DNA of 64,000 bases from Candidatus Solibacter usitatus (lineage in GTDB: Bacteria > Acidobacteriota > Terriglobia > Bryobacterales > Bryobacteraceae), in the NCBI GenBank assembly GCA_016213245.1, contig JACRBC010000120.1, positions 16,819 through 80,818 of the forward strand, in the 5' to 3' direction. Shown here piece by piece: positions 5,367 through 20,926 of the stretch. A model generated the notes under the pieces. The model searched no databases, was not told the origin of the DNA, and was given only the letters and a program-made list of their open reading frames with translations. Numbering within the stretch: position 1 is the first letter of the stretch; every line of letters starts with the position of its first letter. The translations under genes and the position numbers were made by a program.

Positions 5367-7319
5367 ATGAAGTCCTTCGCCTTCCGCCCGCTCTTCAAGA
5401 TCCTGGCCCTGGCCGCCCTGCCCGCCCTTCTGGCGGCCCAGGACCGCCGCCCGGCTATCGACGTGGAGTCCTACAAGATCGACGCCAAAATCGACCTGGC
5501 CCAGCAGACGCTCAGCGCCACCGCCACGGTGACGTTCTCCGCCGTCGACGACAAACTCAACAGCGTCACCTTCGAGCTCCACAACGCCCTCAACTTGGCC
5601 AGCGTCACCTCGGCCGGCGCAACGCTACCGGCCACGCGAGGCAACCAGGACTTCACCGTGCGCGTGAGCCTGCCGGAGCCTTTGGCCAAGGGCGCCAAGA
5701 GCACCTTGACCTTCAACTATGCAGGCCGCTTGAGCGGCGACGAAGAGTCGCCCGTCGCCGGCCTGAAGTTCGCCGCCATTTCGCCCGAGCACGCCTACCT
5801 CCTCTATCCGGCCCGCTGGTTCCCGGTGAGCGGATACACGGTGGACCGCTACACCATGGAACTGTCGGTCAGCGCCCCAGCCGGGTTCAAGGTGGTAACC
5901 AGCGGCCTGGAGTTGCCTGGCCCGAATGGCAGCACCTTCCGCTATCCAGGCGACAGCTTCCCGGGCAGCCTGGCCATGGTGAAGGGTGCCGCCCAAAAGA
6001 TCGCGTCGGAGGGCGTGACCACTGACGTGTGGTTTTCCGGCGAGCGGCAGGGCTTCGCCAAGGCCTACGGCGAGGAGACGGCCAAGGTGATGAACTACCT
6101 CACCAGCCTGTTCGGCATCCCTCCGCAAAAAGACCTGACACTGGTGGAAACCGGCGCCGACGCCCCCGGCGGCTACTCCGCTCCCGGCGTCCTCTTTCTT
6201 GCCCCCTCGGCCATCTCGCAGCAGCCCTCCAACCGCCTGCTCGCCAATCAGATCACCCGGCAGTGGTTCGGCAACCTGATCTCCCCGGTCACGCGCAACC
6301 ACATCTGGATTGTGAACGGCATGGCCAAGTACGCCGAGCTGATGTACCTGGAAGGCCTGAACGGCCCCTCGTCGCTGGAGCTCGAGATCAAGGACCTCTA
6401 CGTCGACGCCATGACCGTCACCGACACCCCGGTCCGCCAGTCCTCCCGCTATGAGGACTACTCTCCGGAATTCTTCGCCGTCACAGGGAGCAAAGGCGCG
6501 GCTACCTACCACATGCTGCGCTGGATCATCGGCGACGCCAATTTCCAGAAGCTCCTCAAAACCACCACGGATCAGTTTGCCGGCAAGCCGGTCTCCACCG
6601 ACGATCTGCGCAAGCTGGCCGAGGCCGCCGGGGGCCAGGTCCTGCAGGGCTTCTTTATTCAGTGGCTGGAATCCACCGGAGCGCCGGAGTTCAAGATGGA
6701 GTACACCATCTACCGCACGCAGAAGGGCTTCCGCGTGATGGGGAAGATCCAGCAGGATCTGGACACGTTCCGCATGCCGGTGGAGCTGCGGATCGAGACC
6801 GAAGGCAATCCGGAGGACAAGCGTGTCGAGGTCGCCGGCCCCGCCACGGACTTCTCCGTCGAGACCTTCGGCAAGCCGCGCAAGGTGATCATCGACCCCA
6901 ACGGGCGCGTGCTGCGCTTAAGCCCGGCGATGCGCGTCGCCGTCGCCATCCGCAAAGGCGAGCAGTTCGCCGAGATCGGCGAGTACAACGAGGCGCTCAA
7001 GGAGTATCAGAAGGCGCTGGAGGTCACGCGGATCAGCTCGCTGGCCCACTACCGCGTGGCCGAGGTCTTCTTCCTCCAGGGCAACTACCAGTCGGCCGCC
7101 AACGAGTTCCGAGAAGCACTGAACGGCGACCTGGAGCCGAAGTGGACCGAGGTCTGGAGCCACATCAACCTGGGCAAGATCTTCGACGTCACCCAGCAGA
7201 GGGAGCGCGCGGTGAACGAGTACACTCTCGCCATCCGCACGAAGGACAACACCCAGGGCGCGCAGGAGGAGGCGGCCAAGTACCGGCAGGCGCCCTACCA
7301 GCGCAAGGACAACAACTGA
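5367..7319 (+). CDS. M1 aminopeptidase-like protein with C-terminal TPR region; zinc motif degenerate
   Basis: N-terminal M1-like beta domain, 'LLANQITRQWFGNLISP' aligned with canonical 'HExxHQWFG', then TPR-like repeats near the C terminus. Confidence 0.75.
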   Translation: MKSFAFRPLFKILALAALPALLAAQDRRPAIDVESYKIDAKIDLAQQTLSATATVTFSAVDDKLNSVTFELHNALNLASVTSAGATLPATRGNQDFTVRVSLPEPLAKGAKSTLTFNYAGRLSGDEESPVAGLKFAAISPEHAYLLYPARWFPVSGYTVDRYTMELSVSAPAGFKVVTSGLELPGPNGSTFRYPGDSFPGSLAMVKGAAQKIASEGVTTDVWFSGERQGFAKAYGEETAKVMNYLTSLFGIPPQKDLTLVETGADAPGGYSAPGVLFLAPSAISQQPSNRLLANQITRQWFGNLISPVTRNHIWIVNGMAKYAELMYLEGLNGPSSLELEIKDLYVDAMTVTDTPVRQSSRYEDYSPEFFAVTGSKGAATYHMLRWIIGDANFQKLLKTTTDQFAGKPVSTDDLRKLAEAAGGQVLQGFFIQWLESTGAPEFKMEYTIYRTQKGFRVMGKIQQDLDTFRMPVELRIETEGNPEDKRVEVAGPATDFSVETFGKPRKVIIDPNGRVLRLSPAMRVAVAIRKGEQFAEIGEYNEALKEYQKALEVTRISSLAHYRVAEVFFLQGNYQSAANEFREALNGDLEPKWTEVWSHINLGKIFDVTQQRERAVNEYTLAIRTKDNTQGAQEEAAKYRQAPYQRKDNN

Positions 7320-7362
7320 GGCCTCGCCAGCGGAAGAGGCGCGCGCCGTTCCCAGCCGAGTG

Positions 7363-7368
7363 TAGAAT
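7363..7368 (+). promoter_or_regulatory. -10-like TAGAAT, 8 nt before the ATG of the AAA ATPase
   Basis: tgTAGAATtgggtcaaATG; no Shine-Dalgarno between. Confidence 0.4.
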
Positions 7369-7376
7369 TGGGTCAA

Positions 7377-8483
7377 ATGCTGAACCGCCTCTACATCGAC
7401 AACTTTCGGGCGTTCGTCAACTTTGAACAGAAGTTCGAGCGCAAGCAGTTGATCCTGGGACGCAACGGTTCGGGTAAGTCCTCGCTACTCGATGGGCTGT
7501 TCAAGATCCGGCAATTCGTGGTGATGGGCGACCGGGCCGAGGACACTTTCTATTCCAGCGAGTGCACGCTGTGGCTCAATCAGCCGCGACAGACCTGGGA
7601 GCTCGAAGCAGACCTGGAAGGAGTTCGCTACGTCTACCGGTTGGTGATTGAGCCCTGGGGCGACCCGCCGAAACCGCGGGTGGTGGAGGAGACGGTTGTT
7701 TGTGCGGGAAAGCCGATATTCGAGTTTCTCCTGGGAGAGGTCCATCTCTTCAACGATCGCTTTGAGCGGAAGGTACAGTATCCGTTCGACTGGCACCGCT
7801 CCGCCCTAGCGACAGTTCAAGGGCGCACGGACATTCAGATTCTGTCCCGATTCAATCAGTGGTTGGATCGAGTCTTCGTTTTTCGTCTCGACCCTTTTCG
7901 GATGGACCCGCGAGCCGAAAGGGAGTCCGTAAACCCGACGGTGGACCTCTCGAATTTCGCGGCCTGGTATCGGCACCTGGTCCAAGCCTACCCTCGACAG
8001 AACACTGAGTTCCTGAAGGGCCTCCAATCATCGGTCGACGACTTCAGCTACTTGAAGCTCGAAGAGGCGGGCGAGAACGTACGGCGACTGGCCGCTGAGT
8101 TCGAACAAAGGGACGGGAAGGTGCTGAAGTTCGGGTTCGGGGAGCTGTCCGAAGGGCAGAGGTGCCTGATCTGTCTTTACGCCATCCTGCATTTCGTCCT
8201 CGCAACCGGCTGCACCGTAGTTCTAGATGAACCAGACAACTTCGTGTCCTTGCGCGAGATTCAACCCTGGCTTATGGCCGCCGACGACATGCTCGCGGAC
8301 GGTCTCGGGCAATTGCTTGTCATCTCCCATCACCCGGAACTGCTGAATCAGTGGGCGCCCGGATCAGGAATTCACTTTTTTCGCGAGAACAACGGGTCGG
8401 TTCGTACCAAGGCCTTCACGGGAGATCCGCACAGCAATCTGTCCCCCGCCGAGTTGATCGCGCGAGGCTGGGAGCGTGAGTAA
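7377..8483 (+). CDS. AAA/SMC-like ATPase (RecF/OLD-type)
   Basis: Walker A GRNGSGKSSLLD, signature LSEGQR, Walker B CTVVLDEPDNF, H-loop VISHHPE. Confidence 0.88.
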   Translation: MLNRLYIDNFRAFVNFEQKFERKQLILGRNGSGKSSLLDGLFKIRQFVVMGDRAEDTFYSSECTLWLNQPRQTWELEADLEGVRYVYRLVIEPWGDPPKPRVVEETVVCAGKPIFEFLLGEVHLFNDRFERKVQYPFDWHRSALATVQGRTDIQILSRFNQWLDRVFVFRLDPFRMDPRAERESVNPTVDLSNFAAWYRHLVQAYPRQNTEFLKGLQSSVDDFSYLKLEEAGENVRRLAAEFEQRDGKVLKFGFGELSEGQRCLICLYAILHFVLATGCTVVLDEPDNFVSLREIQPWLMAADDMLADGLGQLLVISHHPELLNQWAPGSGIHFFRENNGSVRTKAFTGDPHSNLSPAELIARGWERE

Positions 8484-9024
8484 GCCGTCTCTCGTCACAA
8501 TCCTCGCAGAGGATCAGCGCCATCAGCAGTTCATTCGCCGTCTGTTGAAGCGCCTCGGATACACAAACCACGACATCCGGGAGTGCGCCTTGCCGGCCGG
8601 CCGCGGTTGTGGAGAGCAGTGGGTTCGGAAACTTTATCCCCAGGAAGTGACGGGGTTCCGTTCGCGCAGTGCGCGCGCAGCAACCGCTCTTGTCGTGGCC
8701 GTCGATGCTGATACGGCCGACGTGGCGGAACGTGAAACGCAACTCGGAACTTCGCTGCGCGACCAGGGCGTAGCGCCACGGCTCGCTCACGAAGCCGTAG
8801 CCCACCTGATCCCCAAACGGAGTATCGAGACATGGGTCCTATGCCTGAACGGCCAGCCTGTCGACGAAACGACCGACTACAAGCAACGGGCAGACAACAG
8901 CCAGATTCCGGACGCGGCAAACGCCTTCTTCGCCTGGAGCCGCACCAACGCCACCGTTCCGGCGATATGCATCCCTTCACTCAGGACGGCAATCCCGGAG
9001 ATCCGGCGCATAGCGCCGAAGTAG
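8476..9024 (+). CDS. Small protein with putative TOPRIM-like fold, partner of the AAA ATPase
   Basis: ILAEDQRHQQFIRRLLKRLG (acidic first motif), TALVVAVDADTADVAER (DxD-like), IPKRSIETW; GTG start overlaps ATPase stop by 8 nt. Confidence 0.6.
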   Translation: MSKPSLVTILAEDQRHQQFIRRLLKRLGYTNHDIRECALPAGRGCGEQWVRKLYPQEVTGFRSRSARAATALVVAVDADTADVAERETQLGTSLRDQGVAPRLAHEAVAHLIPKRSIETWVLCLNGQPVDETTDYKQRADNSQIPDAANAFFAWSRTNATVPAICIPSLRTAIPEIRRIAPK

Positions 9025-9031
9025 ACCCGCC

Positions 9032-9955
9032 TCAGTGCCCCTCCGCCTCCAGAAAGCGCTCCGCCTCAATCGCCGCCTTGCAGCCCGCGCCTGACGCCGT
9101 GATCGCCTGCCGGTAGGTGCGGTCCTCCACATCGCCGGCGTGGAACACCCCGGCGATGTTGGTACGCGCCCCGCCGTGGCTCACGATGAATCCGTCGGTG
9201 TCCAGGTCCAGTTGCCCCACAAACGGCTGCGTGTTCGGCACGTGGCCGATGGCCAGAAAAAAACCGTCCACCTCCTGCGTCCACTCCTCGCCCGTCTTCA
9301 CGTTCTTCAGCCGGACGGCCTCGACGGAGTTCTTCGACGCGTCGAAGATATCCACCGGAATCGTGCTGGTCAGCCACTTGATCTTCGGGTTGGCCTTGCA
9401 CCGCTCCAGCATGATCTTCGACGCCCGGAACTCGTCGCGGCGGTGGACCAGCGTCACCTCCGAGCCAAAGCGCGTCAGAAAGTTGGCCTCCTCCATGGCC
9501 GAGTCGCCCCCGCCGATCACCATGATCTTTTTGTCCCTGTAGAAGAAGCCGTCACACGTCGCGCAGGAGCTGACGCCGTGGCCGATCAGCCGCTGCTCGT
9601 TGGGCAGGCCCAGCCAGCGCGCCGAGGCGCCCGAGGCGACAATCAACGTCCGGCACTCGTGCCACTCCTCGTCCACCTTCAGCCGGAACGGCCGCCGGGA
9701 GAGATCCGCCTCCTCTACCTTGCCCGTAACGTACTCAGCGCCGAATCGCGCCGCCTGCTGCTTCATGTTCTCCACCAGTTGCGGGCCCATGATGCCCTCC
9801 GGGAAGCCCGGGAAGTTTTCCACCTCCGTGGTCAGCGAGAGTTGCCCGCCCGGCTCGTGCCCGCTGATCACCAGCGGCTTCAGGCCGGCGCGCGCCGTGT
9901 AGATGGCCGCGGTGTTGCCCGCGCACCCCGATCCGATAATGATGACGTCTCGCAT
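9032..9955 (-). CDS. trxB: Thioredoxin-disulfide reductase
   Basis: MRDVIIIGSGCAGNTAAIYTARAGLKPLVI, CATCDGFFYRDKKIMVIGGGDSAMEEA, GVFHAGDVEDRTYRQAITASGAGCKAA. Confidence 0.95.
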   Translation of the reverse strand: MRDVIIIGSGCAGNTAAIYTARAGLKPLVISGHEPGGQLSLTTEVENFPGFPEGIMGPQLVENMKQQAARFGAEYVTGKVEEADLSRRPFRLKVDEEWHECRTLIVASGASARWLGLPNEQRLIGHGVSSCATCDGFFYRDKKIMVIGGGDSAMEEANFLTRFGSEVTLVHRRDEFRASKIMLERCKANPKIKWLTSTIPVDIFDASKNSVEAVRLKNVKTGEEWTQEVDGFFLAIGHVPNTQPFVGQLDLDTDGFIVSHGGARTNIAGVFHAGDVEDRTYRQAITASGAGCKAAIEAERFLEAEGH

Positions 9956-13552: not shown

Positions 13553-13852
13553 TTATAGCGCCTCAGCGTCCAGCAGGAGCATCGGTGCATCCGGGATCAG
13601 CTCACGGATCTCCGCGGACGCCCGCCGGAGCCGGGCCTCCTGGTCGGCCGCCATAATCATGACCGGCCGGTCGTCGCTCACGCCGAACAGCCGCCCGCGG
13701 TGCACATGATGGCCCTTGCCGAAGCCCATCACGCCGCGCATCACGCTGGCCCCTTCGACCCCCATGCTGTTCAGTTTCCGCACCACGGCCTCGTACAGCG
13801 GCACCTCTCCGTGGCTCTCCGTCTCAGCGAGGAAAATCAGCAGAACTTTCAT
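13553..13852 (-). CDS. DUF190 (PII-like) family protein
   Basis: MKVLLIFLAETESHGEVPLYEAVVRKLNSMGVEGASVMRGVMGFG...; 4-nt overlap with upstream RND gene. Confidence 0.82.
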   Translation of the reverse strand: MKVLLIFLAETESHGEVPLYEAVVRKLNSMGVEGASVMRGVMGFGKGHHVHRGRLFGVSDDRPVMIMAADQEARLRRASAEIRELIPDAPMLLLDAEAL

Positions 13853-16800
13853 CCCTCTTGCGCCGCCTCCTTCTTCGTCGATTCTCCGGTAACCAGCAGG
13901 TACAAGCTCGGCAGCGCCAGCAAAGTCAGCAACAGCGTGGACAGCAGTCCGCCCACAACAACCGTGGCCAGCGGCCGCTGCACGTCGCTGCCGATGCCCG
14001 TCGCGCGCGCCGCCGGCACCATCCCCAAGAGCGCCACCGCAATCATCATGAGGACCGGCCGCATCTGCGCGAGCGCGCCTTGCACCACCGCCTCCTGCAC
14101 CCCCAGTTCGGGATCGCTGCGCCGCCGGCGGTTGATTTCCGCCACTACCAGCACGCCGCTCATCACGGCCACGCCGAACAGACTGATGAAGCCCACCGCG
14201 CTCGACACGCTCAGGTTGATGCCTCGCATCCACAGGAAGACGATCCCGCCCACCAGCGAGAACGGCACGTTCATCAACACCAGCCCCGCATAGACGGGCG
14301 AGCCGAAGGTCCAGAACAGCAACAGGAAGATCACGGCGATGGTCACCGGCATGATGAAGGCCAGCCGCCGCTTGGCCCGTGTCAGGTTTTCGAACTGGCC
14401 GCCCCAATCCACCTCGTACCCCTTCGGCACGCGAATGGCCTTGCTGAACCTCGCCTGCGCATCGGCCACAAAGCTGCCCTGGTCGCGCCCGCGGATGTTC
14501 GTGCGCACCGTGATCTGACGCCGGTTCTCCCGCCGCGCGATGATGCTGGCCCCGTTCACCACCTCGATCCGCGCCAGTTGCGATAGCGGCACGCGCCCGC
14601 CCTCGCGGGTCGACACCAGAATCTCGCCGATCACGTGCGCGTCCTTGCGCGCCTCTGGAACGTAGCGCACCGTCACGTCGAACACCCGTTCGCCTTCAAA
14701 TACCGTGCTCACCGCCCGGCCGCCCACCGCCATTTCGACCACATCCTGCACGTCGCGAACGTTGATGCCATAACGCGCCACCGCCTGCCGGTCCACCTCG
14801 ATCCGCAGTTGCGGCTGGTCCTCTTCCTGTTCAATCGCCGAATCCGCCGCACCGGGTACTTGTTTAATCACTTCCAGCGCCTGCCGCGCCTGCGCCCTCA
14901 ATTCGTCCAGGTTCGGCCCGGTGAAAATCACAGCCAGATCCGCCGCTGATCCGGTTACCGCCTCGGTCACGTTGTCGATGATCGGCTGGGTGAAGCTGAA
15001 TGCCGCTCCGGGGATCTCGTCCCTCAGTTGCTTCGACATCGCCTCGATCAGCGCCGCCTTGTTTCTTCCGCTGCTCCACGTGTCGTAGGGCTTCAGGGCG
15101 ACGAACACCTCGTTCCTGTTCGCCCCATAGGGGTCCGTCCCCGAGTCGTTGCGTCCGCTCTGCGAGCTCACCAGCTTTACCTCGGGGAACCTGGCGAGAA
15201 TAGCCCGTAGCTGCGCCGCCACCTGCGCCGACTTCTCAATCGACACGCCCGGCGCCAGCGTCGCCCTCACCCAGATCACCCCTTCATCCAACTGCGGCAG
15301 AAACTCCGAGCCCAGCGATGCCGCCAGCAGGAAGGCCGCCAGCACCACCGCGACCGATGCCCCGACCGTCACCTTCGGCCAGGCCATGGTGGATTTCAGA
15401 GCCCGCCGGTACAGATCGCCCAGCCAGTGCAGCACGGGGTTGTCCCAGTCCTTGGCGCCATGCCGGAACAGGTACGTCGCCAGCACTGGAATCAGCGTCA
15501 GCGCGATCAGCAGCGAACCCAGCAGCGCGTAGCAGATCGTAAACGCCATCGGCGTGAACAACCGCCTCTCGACTCGCTCCAGCGTGAACAGCGGAATGTA
15601 GGCGCTGATGATGATCATCAGGGAGAAGAAGATCGGGCGTTCCATCTCCAACGCCGCGTCCCGCACGGCCCCCACAACCCCGCTGCGCGTCCCCAGTTTG
15701 CCGGCCCGCTGCCGCTCGACCAGCAGGTGCACCACGTGCTCCACCATCACCAGCGTCCCGTCCACGATGATGCCGAAGTCCAGCGCGCCCAATGACAGCA
15801 GATTCGCCGGGATGCCGGAAACCTGCATGCACACAAACGCGAACAGCAGCGACAACGGAATGGTGATCGCCGTCAACAGCGCCGCGCGCACGCTCCCGAG
15901 AAACAGGAAGAGCACGGCGACGACGATCACCAGCCCTTCCATCAGCGTGTGCGTGACCGTTCCCAGGGTGTTGCTCACCAGGTCCGTGCGGTCATAGATG
16001 GGCGTGATCCTCACGCCCTGGGGGAGCCGCGCGGAGTTCAGTTCGTCCACCGCCTCCTTGATGCCCTCCAGCACCTCGCTCGGGTTTTCGCCGCGGCGCA
16101 TCAGCACGATGCCTTCAACGCCGTTCTGCTTCTCATTCACACCGAAGATGCCCGCCGGCGGCGGCGCGCCAAACTTCACCCGCGCCACGTCCTTGACAAA
16201 TACGGGCACGCCCTTCGACTCGCTGACGACAATGCTCTCCACGTCGGCGATGGACTTCACCTGCCCCACTCCCCGGATCACCAGCGCCTGCTGTCCGTTG
16301 TCCAGCATCGCGCCGCCGGCATTCTGGTTGTTCGCATCCAGCGCCTGTGCCACCTGCGAGACGGTCAGCCCGTACTTGGCCAGCGACAGCGGGTCGATCT
16401 CCACTTGGTACTGCCGGATCAGGCCGCCGAACGGCGTCACGTCCGCCACACCCCGCACCTGCAGGAACCGCGGCTCAATCACCCAGTCCTGCAGTTCCCG
16501 CAACCGCATCGCATTGAAGCCCGGCCCCTCCAGCGAGTACCTGTACAATTCGCCGATGGGCGTCGACAGCGGGCCCAGTGACGGAGTCACACCCGGCGGC
16601 AGGTTGGCGTCCCGCAGCTTTTCCAGCACCACTTGCCGCGCGAAATAGTCGTTCACGCCGTAGGCGAACGTTAACTCCACCACAGACAACCCGAAGATGG
16701 TTCGCGATCTGCGCGCGATCACGTTCGGCACGCTGTTCAAGGCGCGCTCCAGCGGCACCGTCACCTGCTGCTCCACCTCTTCCGCCGCACGCCCCCGGTA

Positions 16801-16956
16801 TTCCGAAATCACGACCACCTGCGTGTCGGAGATATCCGGATAGGCTTCGACCTTCAGTTGCAGGTAGGCCCAGATCCCGGCGCCCACCAGCGCCAGGCCG
16901 ATCAGAAGCGTGATGAAGCGCTGGCGAAGAGAGAAGCGAAGCAGTTGTGCGATCAA
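13849..16956 (-). CDS. HME-type RND efflux permease (CusA/CzcA family)
   Basis: KVEAYPDISDTQVVVISEYRGRAAEEVEQQVTVPLE; about 1035 aa with RND topology. Confidence 0.95.
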   Translation of the reverse strand: MIAQLLRFSLRQRFITLLIGLALVGAGIWAYLQLKVEAYPDISDTQVVVISEYRGRAAEEVEQQVTVPLERALNSVPNVIARRSRTIFGLSVVELTFAYGVNDYFARQVVLEKLRDANLPPGVTPSLGPLSTPIGELYRYSLEGPGFNAMRLRELQDWVIEPRFLQVRGVADVTPFGGLIRQYQVEIDPLSLAKYGLTVSQVAQALDANNQNAGGAMLDNGQQALVIRGVGQVKSIADVESIVVSESKGVPVFVKDVARVKFGAPPPAGIFGVNEKQNGVEGIVLMRRGENPSEVLEGIKEAVDELNSARLPQGVRITPIYDRTDLVSNTLGTVTHTLMEGLVIVVAVLFLFLGSVRAALLTAITIPLSLLFAFVCMQVSGIPANLLSLGALDFGIIVDGTLVMVEHVVHLLVERQRAGKLGTRSGVVGAVRDAALEMERPIFFSLMIIISAYIPLFTLERVERRLFTPMAFTICYALLGSLLIALTLIPVLATYLFRHGAKDWDNPVLHWLGDLYRRALKSTMAWPKVTVGASVAVVLAAFLLAASLGSEFLPQLDEGVIWVRATLAPGVSIEKSAQVAAQLRAILARFPEVKLVSSQSGRNDSGTDPYGANRNEVFVALKPYDTWSSGRNKAALIEAMSKQLRDEIPGAAFSFTQPIIDNVTEAVTGSAADLAVIFTGPNLDELRAQARQALEVIKQVPGAADSAIEQEEDQPQLRIEVDRQAVARYGINVRDVQDVVEMAVGGRAVSTVFEGERVFDVTVRYVPEARKDAHVIGEILVSTREGGRVPLSQLARIEVVNGASIIARRENRRQITVRTNIRGRDQGSFVADAQARFSKAIRVPKGYEVDWGGQFENLTRAKRRLAFIMPVTIAVIFLLLFWTFGSPVYAGLVLMNVPFSLVGGIVFLWMRGINLSVSSAVGFISLFGVAVMSGVLVVAEINRRRRSDPELGVQEAVVQGALAQMRPVLMMIAVALLGMVPAARATGIGSDVQRPLATVVVGGLLSTLLLTLLALPSLYLLVTGESTKKEAAQEG

Positions 16957-16969
16957 AGCGGCTTCTCCC

Positions 16970-18115
16970 TCAATTGCCCTTCAGCAGCATCACTCCGTCC
17001 GTCACCACGCGGTCGCCAGCCTTGATTCCGCCGGCGATTCCCAAGAGGCCGCCCGCCCGGTTCGCAGTCTGCACGCCGGTTTGCCGGAACCGGCCCGGCC
17101 CGGTTTCCACGTACAGGTAACTACCGCTCTGCCCCTGCAGGACGGCCGCGGCCGGCACCACCGGCATCGCCTTCATCCCCTCCACGTGCCGGATGCGTCC
17201 GAACATTTCAGGCAGCAGCCGTCCAATCGGGTTCTGCAGCTCCGCCCGCACCTTTACCGTGCGCGTGGTGGGATCCACTGCGTCTGCAATGCGTTTCACG
17301 CGCGCGCGGAAGTGCTCGCCGGGATACGCACTCAACTCGAGGTCCAGAGCCTCGCCCACCTTGATGAACCGGATCGCCGTCTCCGGCACGTCCGAAGCAA
17401 TCCACACCGTGCTCAGGTCGGCGACCGTCAGTAAGGGCTGGTTGGTGTCGTTCCGGAACTCCCCCGGCACTACGCTCAGTTCCAGCACCTTCCCCGGAAC
17501 CGGCGCCCGCAACGTAATCTTCTGTCCAAACTCGCCAGCCTTCAGGCCCAGAATCGCCAGCCGTCGTGACGCCTGCTCTCGAGCCGCCACAGCCTGTTCC
17601 ACCTGCGCCTTCGCCTGCGCCATGGCGTTTTCGGCGTTCAGCACTTCCTTCTTCGCGATGGCCTGGTGCTCCAGCAGGTCCCGCGTGCGCTCCAGGTCCG
17701 CCTGCGCCTTCAGCAGGTTCGCTTTCATCTGGCCCAGCGCCGAATCCGCCTGCAAGTAGGCGGAAATCGCCACGTCGGCGTCCGGACTCTCGATCGTCGC
17801 CACCGGCTCCCCTTCCTTCACGGCATCGCCCAGCTTCACAAAGACCTGCGTGATGCGCCCGGCCACGGGCGTCACAACCCGCGAAACCCTGTTCGGATTC
17901 ACTTCAATCCTGCCCGGCGCGTCGACCTCGTCCACCGGCACGTCCGCTTCCTTCACGATCTCCACCTTGATCTGCCGCAACTTCGGTGAGTCCGGAGCGA
18001 TTACCACTTCGCCCGGACCAGCCGCCGCGGCCACCGCCGGGGCCTTCGCGCCGTCTCCGCTCTTCGAACAGCCTGCCAGCAGGCCGGCCAACAACAACAA
18101 TCCTGCAATCCTCAT
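16970..18115 (-). CDS. Efflux RND periplasmic adaptor subunit (CusB/CzcB family)
   Basis: Lipobox LLAGC, APVAGRITQVFVKLGDAVKEGEPVATIESPD, HlyD-like architecture. Confidence 0.92.
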   Translation of the reverse strand: MRIAGLLLLAGLLAGCSKSGDGAKAPAVAAAAGPGEVVIAPDSPKLRQIKVEIVKEADVPVDEVDAPGRIEVNPNRVSRVVTPVAGRITQVFVKLGDAVKEGEPVATIESPDADVAISAYLQADSALGQMKANLLKAQADLERTRDLLEHQAIAKKEVLNAENAMAQAKAQVEQAVAAREQASRRLAILGLKAGEFGQKITLRAPVPGKVLELSVVPGEFRNDTNQPLLTVADLSTVWIASDVPETAIRFIKVGEALDLELSAYPGEHFRARVKRIADAVDPTTRTVKVRAELQNPIGRLLPEMFGRIRHVEGMKAMPVVPAAAVLQGQSGSYLYVETGPGRFRQTGVQTANRAGGLLGIAGGIKAGDRVVTDGVMLLKGN

Positions 18116-19407
18116 GGGGTTACTGACTTTCCGGTCACTGCATCAATCAGGAAGAGACTCTTCGTATAGTCGCCCCTGGCTTCGTTGTAGCTCTGTATCG
18201 CGTCGATGTAAGCGCGCTGCGCGTCCAGAAACTCCAGCAGCGACGCCTCTCCCCGCCGGTAGCTATACTCCGTGATGTCCCGCACCTGTTTCGCCTCCGC
18301 CATCAGACTCCCCTTAATCCGCTCCAAGAGATTCCATGCGCTGGCATATTGCTGGCAGGCGTTCTCAACCTCCGTTGAGATCAGCGTCTCCAGCGCCTGC
18401 GATCGCATCTCCGTCTGCCTGGTCTCCAGTCGCGCACGCTCAATCTCGCCCTGGTTGCGGTTGTACAACGGCATCGGAAACTGCAGGTACACGCCGAAAG
18501 TCCGCCCATCGGAGTACCCGTACTGGTGGTGGTACATCAAGCTCGCCGTGTAGTCGGGCCGCGCCAGCGATTTCTGCAGTCTCGTGTCCGCCGCCGCCCG
18601 CTCGGCGTCTTTCCTCTGGGCAAGCAGGTCGGGTCTCTGCTGCAGCGCCTGCGTCTTCAGCTCGTCGAGCAACACGATGGCAGGCCGCTCATTCAGCGCA
18701 CCGGCAAGGTCGAAGCTCGAGTCCTTGCTCTTCCGCCCGATCAATTGCTGGAGGTTGTTGCCCGCCGTCAGCAACCGCAGTTCGGCCTGACGCAACGAGT
18801 TCTCGAATTGCTGCTGCGCGACCCGCATTCGAACCAATTCCACCCCTGCAAGGTCGCCGGCCTTCACCCTGGCCGCATTCACCTGGATGATGTCGCTGAA
18901 CACTTTCAGGTTCTGGCGCGCCAGGTTCACGCTTTCCTTTGCCAGGAGGTACTCGACGCACGCCAATCGCACGTTGAGCGAGAGGATGCGAATCGAATCG
19001 ACAAGCCGTAGATCGGCGACAGCCGTAGCCAGCTTCGCCAGGGCCATTCTTCCCGGCCTCTTGCCAGGACCTTCGATAATGTAGTCCACATGAGTGCTCC
19101 ACTCCGAAGGACCTGCGCTGTTGGCTACCGTCAAACCTCGACCGAGCCAATCGAGGTAGTCCCAAGCGAAGTTCAGAACCGGATTGGGGCGCAAAGCTGC
19201 CTGGATCTCCCGCGCCTTCGAAATCGGCACGTTTTGCTTCTCAGCCATCAGAGCCAGGTTGTTCCTGAGAGACTCTTCCACCGCCTGGTCAATCGTAAGA
19301 ATTTGCGGCGCCGTCTGCCCGCGGACCGAGTGGGGAGACAGGCTCAGCAGCAACACACTCGCAAGGAATCCCGTTTTCACTTCCTTCCAGTATGAACAAG
19401 TCCCCAT
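18112..19407 (-). CDS. TolC family outer membrane protein (CzcC-like)
   Basis: Coiled-coil OEP repeats, RPDLLAQRKDAERAAAD; signal peptide after start at 19407 preceded by ggagg. Confidence 0.88.
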   Translation of the reverse strand: MGTCSYWKEVKTGFLASVLLLSLSPHSVRGQTAPQILTIDQAVEESLRNNLALMAEKQNVPISKAREIQAALRPNPVLNFAWDYLDWLGRGLTVANSAGPSEWSTHVDYIIEGPGKRPGRMALAKLATAVADLRLVDSIRILSLNVRLACVEYLLAKESVNLARQNLKVFSDIIQVNAARVKAGDLAGVELVRMRVAQQQFENSLRQAELRLLTAGNNLQQLIGRKSKDSSFDLAGALNERPAIVLLDELKTQALQQRPDLLAQRKDAERAAADTRLQKSLARPDYTASLMYHHQYGYSDGRTFGVYLQFPMPLYNRNQGEIERARLETRQTEMRSQALETLISTEVENACQQYASAWNLLERIKGSLMAEAKQVRDITEYSYRRGEASLLEFLDAQRAYIDAIQSYNEARGDYTKSLFLIDAVTGKSVTP

Positions 19408-19588
19408 CCTCCGCCAATCCCCGGTCCGAGCTAGGCGCGCCACAATAGTTGAGTGGCATCGTAAGATACCCCCATCCTTCGGCTGGGTCCCAATCGCCTC
19501 CCCCCGAACATACGTTCCGTCAATAGCCTCCCCAGGGGATACCGTTCCGTCGAAACTTGTTACAAGCTGGAGATGGGTATCCCTGTCC

Positions 19589-20926
19589 ATGATGGCGCGC
19601 CCGTCTCAATTCGGCTCGGTGGCGTCCGCACTTGCGCGGCCCGTCACACAAAAGGCCATTACGCGCGTCGTTCTCGCCGGCTTCTCCCTCGTCATCCTCT
19701 CCATGCTCGCCGCCGGTCTGCTCGGCGTCCGCAGTATCAGCAATATCCGGGCCACCACAGGCGAGCTCCTGGAGGAACAGGTTCGCATCCAGGACCTGCT
19801 CGACGCCGTCCTCCGCGAGCAGCGCGCCATCAACGCCATCTTTGCCGGTTTCGCCCAGACGCCGGACAAGATCGACCGGGAACAACTCCTCAGCCAACTC
19901 GAAGCCTCTGACCGCGACATCGAAAAGATCGCCGCCGATGCCGCCGACGAACCCGCCCAGGCCTTGTGGCAGGATCTCTACAAAGCCGTCACCCATTTTT
20001 CCGTCGAAGCCCGCGGCATGCTCGACGCTCCGCGCGGCATCAGGCGGCCATTGCGCCAATTGATGAGCGCCCACCAAAACGTCTTGTCCCTGGTCGATAA
20101 GCTGGTCGAGGTTCAGGCGCGCCGCTCCGTCGAACTCAAGCAACAGTTGGAGGATATCTCCGGCCGCATGCTCCAGCAGACATCCATCCTGCTCGGCGCC
20201 AGTCTCCTGCTCGCGCTCCTTTGCGCCATCTATACCGTTCGCCTCGCCGTCAGACTCGTCCGCCAGCTCGAATGGCAAACCGCCGAATTGAGCCGCGTCT
20301 CCTGGAACCTGCTCGAAAAACAGGAGACCACCGCCCGCCGCTTCTCGCACGAGTTGCACGACGAGTTGGGTCAATCCCTCACCGCCGTCAAGGCCAATCT
20401 GGTCGCCCTCAGCGAACACGCCAACGGCGGCCGCCCGCAACTCGACGACTGCCTCCATCTTGTGGACGAGGCCATCGTCAACGTCCGTGAGCTTTCCCAG
20501 CTTCTTCGCCCCACCATCCTCGACGACTTCGGCCTGCCGGCCGGTCTCAAGTGGCTCTGCGACCGCTTCAAGCTCCGTACCGGTATCGACGTCGAATGCT
20601 CTTCCACCTTCGAGGGCCGTATCGCCGACGAGACCGAAACCCACCTCTTCCGCATCGCCCAGGAGGCCCTCACCAACGTCGCCCGCCACGCCAAGGCCAC
20701 CCACGTCTCGGTCCGCCTCCTGCGCCAGGACGGCCAGATCAACCTCCACATTTCGGACAACGGGCAGGGCGTACAGCCCGGAGCGCCGGCCGCCGACCAT
20801 GGCCTCGGACTGGTGGGCATGCGGGCGCGGGCTCGCAGCGCTGGTGGAGAATTGAAGGTGCAGACCGCGCCTGGCAAAGGCGTCGAAATCGCCGCCTCCT
20901 TCCCCATCAAGGAACGAGCGGACTGA
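19589..20926 (+). CDS. Sensor histidine kinase (HisKA_3/NarX-like)
   Basis: Two TM segments, RRFSHELHDELGQSLTAVKANL H-box, HATPase DNGQGV...GLGLVGMRARARSAGG. Confidence 0.92.
   Translation: MMARPSQFGSVASALARPVTQKAITRVVLAGFSLVILSMLAAGLLGVRSISNIRATTGELLEEQVRIQDLLDAVLREQRAINAIFAGFAQTPDKIDREQLLSQLEASDRDIEKIAADAADEPAQALWQDLYKAVTHFSVEARGMLDAPRGIRRPLRQLMSAHQNVLSLVDKLVEVQARRSVELKQQLEDISGRMLQQTSILLGASLLLALLCAIYTVRLAVRLVRQLEWQTAELSRVSWNLLEKQETTARRFSHELHDELGQSLTAVKANLVALSEHANGGRPQLDDCLHLVDEAIVNVRELSQLLRPTILDDFGLPAGLKWLCDRFKLRTGIDVECSSTFEGRIADETETHLFRIAQEALTNVARHAKATHVSVRLLRQDGQINLHISDNGQGVQPGAPAADHGLGLVGMRARARSAGGELKVQTAPGKGVEIAASFPIKERAD

Follow-up and report, generated by a model that had tools for sequence, protein, structure and literature searches.

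A horizontally acquired gene pair encoding an OLD-type ABC ATPase and a probable TOPRIM-type partner in Candidatus Solibacter usitatus

Introduction

OLD-type ATPases occur together with TOPRIM chemistry in several arrangements: OLD and Gabija GajA are fused single proteins, MADS, with Mad3 and Mad4, is a many-gene system, and PARIS encodes its ABC ATPase AriA and its TOPRIM nuclease AriB, which is of the DUF4435 type, as separate genes. In AbiL, AbiLii is RloB-like. TOPRIM-linked OLD ABC ATPases recur in conflict systems (PMC12839542), and the ABC ATPase of PARIS forms a hexamer that keeps AriB sequestered until a phage trigger leads to its release (PMC12409363). Amongst the PADLOC candidates, HEC-01 likewise combines an ATPase with a small partner; a literature search on HEC-01 and DUF4276 found nothing, HECs being mentioned in general terms only.

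Here we describe a two-gene cassette in a 64,000-nucleotide stretch of the Candidatus Solibacter usitatus contig JACRBC010000120.1 (hereafter the window), which an earlier note, made from the letters of the sequence, had proposed as a PARIS-like pair of an AAA ATPase and a TOPRIM-like protein. We think it fairly likely that the pair is a mobile, split-OLD-like module directed against invaders, in which an ATPase sensor and a TOPRIM nuclease are translationally coupled, and its best reading amongst catalogued systems is as a divergent relative of the HEC-01-type candidates of PADLOC.

Results

The two genes lie on the plus strand in a cassette of about 1.7 kb (7322..9028, the ends set by blastn to the congener G002), and the layout given in the earlier note was reproduced throughout. 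The OLD/AbiLi-type ABC ATPase gene (7377..8483) has an ATG start and encodes 368 aa, with an alternative TTG start at 7368 adding 3 aa, and is followed by the DUF4276/TOPRIM-like partner gene (8476..9024, 182 aa), whose GTG start lies within the 3′ end of the ATPase gene, the two reading frames overlapping by 8 nt. On the left a peptidase/TPR-like gene reaches its stop at 7319, and on the right trxB, on the minus strand, has its stop at 9032. The pair had also been credited with its own '-10-like box', and this part of the description fell away: TAGAAT at 7363-7368 lies in no promoter-like site (0 found, 0.4 expected), and a dedicated promoter for the pair was rejected, nothing being found above chance. 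Elsewhere in the window, a minus-strand stretch (13849-19590) can be read as a set of genes for RND heavy-metal efflux, comprising a CusA-like pump, a membrane-fusion protein and an outer-membrane factor.

The window ATPase is an OLD-type ABC ATPase of the AAA_21 class, passing the Pfam cut-off for AAA_21 (PF13304; 6.7e-14, 53.1 bits against a cut-off of 27) and carrying all four of the expected motifs, which were present as previously quoted and whose key residues do not vary amongst 12 homologues. These are, all on the plus strand, the Walker A motif GRNGSGKSSLLD (7458..7493; G28, N30, G31, G33 and K34 invariant), the ABC signature LSEGQR (8145..8162; S258, G260 and Q261), Walker B VVLDEPDNF (8217..8243; D284, E285 and P286) and the H-loop SHHPE (8325..8339; S317-E321, including H318 and H319). 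Equally invariant in the 12 homologues is a C-terminal A-R-G-W tail (A362-W365; 8460..8471, plus strand), just 5′ of the overlap with the partner, and it is possible that this serves as a docking tail for the partner. Amongst PADLOC models the best match was AbiLi (2.5e-18), with AriA (9.8e-14), HEC-01A (1.3e-11) and mad3 also amongst the best, and sequence matches in the PDB were to the ATP-binding regions of Rad50, OLD, PtuA, RecF and ABC-F proteins.

Assignment of the partner was less direct. The three motifs quoted for it previously (ILAEDQRHQQF, VVAVDADT and IPKRSIETW) were all found, and in an alignment of 16 sequences the residues at their centre proved invariant: E12-D13 (8509..8514, plus strand), containing the proposed TOPRIM catalytic Glu, in register with that of DUF4276, DUF3226 and OLD-like TOPRIM proteins; D77-A-D79 (8704..8712, plus strand), the proposed metal-binding DxD, in register with the TOPRIM-type DxD; and, within I117-E-T-W120 (8824..8835, plus strand), E118-T119-W120, aligned with the ExEAW of DUF4276, at the ExW position after DxD. 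Between the first two lies a family-specific motif, GRGxGEQWVR (8599..8628, plus strand), conserved in an alignment of the family, with G44, E47 and R51 invariant. On its own the window partner gave only marginal matches to DUF3226 (0.018) and DUF4276 (0.024) in Pfam and to HEC-01B in PADLOC (0.0037, over half the model), and it lies below the Pfam gathering scores of DUF4276 (PF14103) and DUF3226 (15.3 bits against 30.2 and 27 bits), which denotes a remote relationship and not membership. Its homologues scored better (DUF4276 2.3e-5, DUF3226 1.4e-4, HEC-01B 7.5e-7). MDMPI_N, the top single-sequence Pfam match (0.0049), was rejected, being found in 1/12 members only and below the cut-off.

A family profile of the 16 sequences was then compared by hhalign, using 60 column shuffles and the reversed profile as controls. 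It matched DUF4276 at 97% with a score of 70.5, against 21.7 for the best of the shuffles and 12.1 for the reversed profile, and DUF3226 at 90%; these two families in turn matched the OLD-like TOPRIM family at 84% and 92%, respectively. Along this chain Glu12 and Asp77-x-Asp79 land on the TOPRIM Glu and DxD. Direct comparison of the partner family with OLD-like TOPRIM (2%) and with RloB (4.5%) was not significant in either case, so the TOPRIM assignment, with Glu and DxD in register with known families, is transitive. The partner profile, searched against PDB sequences, returned no match.

Structure prediction gave a vaguer picture. AlphaFold, with an input of three sequences only (the window partner and the homologues at L003 and L004), produced low-confidence models (pLDDT 52.8 for the window partner and 65.7 for the L004 homologue) with a strand-helix order of E-H-E-H-E-H-E-H, compatible with TOPRIM. 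Foldseek and VIA-align searches with these low-confidence models returned generic alpha/beta (Rossmann-like) matches, none of them significant; the OLD TOPRIM structures 6nk8, 6njv and 6njx gave some of the longest alignments (137-139 residues), at Z values of 4.4-4.6 that were level with unrelated proteins. The earlier proposal of a TOPRIM partner thus stands on transitive profile homology and the Glu/DxD register, and not on a confident structure. Receiver domains, lumazine synthase and the Argonaute MID domain scored as high in these searches as any TOPRIM, as would be expected were the partner a Rossmann-like protein other than a nuclease, for example a regulator, with E and DxD in another role. 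We consider this very improbable, given that E12, D77 and D79 are strictly invariant and in register with TOPRIM-type families and that the OLD TOPRIM structures are amongst the longest alignments, though with low Z. Judged by its sequence, the partner is probably a small, metal-dependent TOPRIM-type nuclease.

The cassette is an insertion, since in the congener G002 (L144), whose flanks are 86-91% identical, the peptidase-like gene and trxB are adjacent and the pair is absent. In the blastn alignment the left block ends at window position 7321 and the right block starts at 9029, with 5 bases between the blocks in L144. The same two flanking genes are also adjacent in the more distant family member G010, and the absence of the pair is therefore probably ancestral. 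The cassette has a G+C content of 59.6%, below the 66.1% of the window, and amongst the long ORFs it is the ATPase gene whose G+C is lowest. At its ends terminal repeats were found at chance level only, and a search for a transposase found none.

The pair was absent from all 8 congeners searched, and clear matches were obtained in 12/101 genomes of a near-relative set and 6/297 genomes across the phylum (own genome counted), the homologues being found in relatives of the Bryobacterales-like lineage and in one Anaerolineae genome. Four different queries of viral contigs returned no relatives, phage records no ATPase relatives and plasmids no partner relatives; two distant ATPase matches were obtained on plasmids, one of which, when examined, ended without a clear partner gene. 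At 16 homologous loci no recurring gene adjoins the pair, the few shared families lying elsewhere in the stretches, and by eye the neighbours are mostly ordinary genes such as carAB, leuD/leuB and dprA/topA. The homologues lie at unrelated sites, and the pair was acquired horizontally. In G038 (L029 4187-9570), for instance, the homologous pair lies between dprA-like and topA-like genes as read by eye, six bases after the former, and in an Anaerolineae MAG (L004 4380-7680) it lies, again by eye, between leuD and leuB, 15 and 25 bases away, an apparent insertion into an operon. At the 16 loci, reading by eye found no defence genes recurring next to the homologues, and neighbours of this mostly ordinary kind offer no evidence of a defence island. 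The description of the pair as an isolated cassette is right for this window, where the empty site in the congener bears it out, and the neighbours of the homologues supply no defence-island context for it.

This distribution bears on whether the pair might instead be an accessory of DNA repair or genome maintenance, with a RecF/Rad50-like ATPase and its TOPRIM partner acting on host DNA and not on invaders. RecF acts together with RecR, a TOPRIM protein, and the N-terminal P-loop region of the window ATPase matches Rad50, RecF and SMC. Moreover, an archaeal OLD-family ATPase is described with a cell-cycle role that is apparently not defence (PMC12796447). The patchy presence, horizontal acquisition and absence of conserved neighbours all argue against such a role, which we regard as decidedly unlikely. 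Patchy presence and clean insertion at an empty site are, by comparison, features shared with many defence genes and favour the split-OLD-like module.

The two genes also travel together. An ATPase gene lies directly upstream of the partner in 13/13 clear homologues from the first searches and in 4/4 from across the phylum, 17/17 homologous loci altogether, a count from which L016-L019 were left out (E above 1e-4, short stretches). Because every clear partner homologue has the ATPase directly upstream, the pairing is far beyond chance, and the co-occurrence by which the earlier note had proposed to judge its own reading is kept in other genomes. The junctions at homologous loci are overlapping or touching; in the near-relative set, strong ATPase matches and partner matches come from the same genomes; and the distance matrices of the two proteins are correlated (r=0.87, Mantel p=5e-5), a correlation that inheritance as a unit alone can yield. 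Within the same bacterial class, a related ATPase was found in the upstream flank of DUF4276 (20/20), DUF3226 (5/5) and RloB (4/5) loci.

Two loci depart from the intact arrangement. In G039 (L036 5469-6750) the ATPase is intact and the partner is cut down to its first ~60 residues, a decayed copy in which the nuclease part was lost first. In G060 (L031 5808-6906) the partner frame is intact, and the ATPase breaks near residue 60 and continues in a second frame, which could reflect decay or, the assembly being a draft, a sequencing error. The latter locus is relevant to a toxin-antitoxin-like or selfish addiction module, in which the ATPase would hold in check a toxic partner able to kill or stall any cell losing the pair, with phage defence incidental. 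A small, translationally coupled, mobile two-gene cassette inserted alone amongst ordinary genes has much of the appearance of such a module, and PF13304 is annotated as a type IV toxin-antitoxin ATPase. We nevertheless think it unlikely: the ATPase is a large ABC enzyme, catalytically intact by its motifs, which is unusual for a simple antitoxin, and in G060 the ATPase frame is disrupted beside an intact partner frame, with the proviso on the draft assembly given above.

A second, weaker ATPase subfamily was seen at L133, L138, L139, L140 and L141. Immediately after it comes a ~160-aa protein carrying the motifs LPEDDANRQ and LIDFDG/LIDCDG. This protein has an EDD...DxD pattern and an 82% profile match, and with its ATPase apparently forms another split ATPase and TOPRIM-like pair, which in some genomes coexists with the type found in the window.

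Discussion

Returning to the split-OLD-like module as our preferred reading, its relatives are best sought amongst the PADLOC candidates. Both genes of family members match the same candidates (HEC-01A/B, PDC-M25A/B, PDC-M38A/B and mad3/mad4), and HEC-01 resembles the pair in its combination of an ATPase and a small partner, with family members reaching 1.5e-26 for HEC-01A and, at best, 7.5e-7 for HEC-01B. The window partner, however, matches only half of the HEC-01B model, and its clade has its own GRGxGEQ(F/W)VR and PKRxIETW motifs. Operons of DUF4276 and DUF3226 genes share the AAA_21-type ATPase upstream, and Glu, DxD and (for DUF4276) ExW are in register, but the window partner lies below the Pfam gathering scores of both families.

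The PARIS-like label of the earlier note survives by analogy, in that ABC ATPase and TOPRIM nuclease are separate genes and the AriA profile matches the window ATPase. The closest annotated relatives, by contrast, are HEC-01A/B, PDC-M25, PDC-M38 and MADS3/4, AbiLi being the one model that the window ATPase matches best, and no match to AriB/DUF4435 was amongst the profile matches reported for the partner family from single-sequence searches, whereas AriB is of that type. Similarly, AbiL shares the ATPase match to AbiLi but has an RloB-like AbiLii, to which the partner family has no significant relationship. OLD, GajA and MADS share an OLD-type ATPase and TOPRIM chemistry, and the mad3 and mad4 models match family members, but those systems are fusions or have many genes, whilst the window pair is separate and has no such genes here. 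Gabija in particular would consist of an ATPase-TOPRIM fusion followed by a UvrD-like helicase; here the genes are separate and the next gene is trxB on the opposite strand.

The mechanism that we infer for the pair, including its physical complex, nuclease activity, trigger, target and anti-phage role, is as follows. The OLD-type ABC ATPase would presumably dimerise on ATP and bind the partner, probably keeping it inactive; on sensing a signal from an invader the ATPase would activate or release the partner; and the latter, with Mg2+ bound at Glu12 and Asp77/Asp79, would then cut nucleic acid (tRNA or DNA), such that infection might be stopped either by abortive infection or by direct attack. 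By analogy, the pair is probably anti-phage. Counting against this reading are the low-confidence models, the non-significant direct comparisons with OLD-like TOPRIM and RloB, the absence of recurring defence genes at the loci read and of copies in the phage and viral records searched, and the truncated partner of G039. More tentatively, the pair may represent a separate, unnamed clade of split ATPase and TOPRIM immune modules that moves outside defence islands as a 1.7-kb cassette of nothing but the two genes, has a trigger and a nucleic-acid target of its own, and is marked by GRGxGEQ(F/W)VR, PKRxIETW and the ARGW docking tail.

A clade poorly recognised by Pfam, NCBIfam and PADLOC models is thereby added to the split-OLD architecture seen in PARIS and amongst the PADLOC candidates. 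The pair offers a minimal two-gene system for studying the control of a small TOPRIM nuclease by an OLD ATPase, and with the conserved ARGW tail and the empty site its mechanism and mobility are directly testable.
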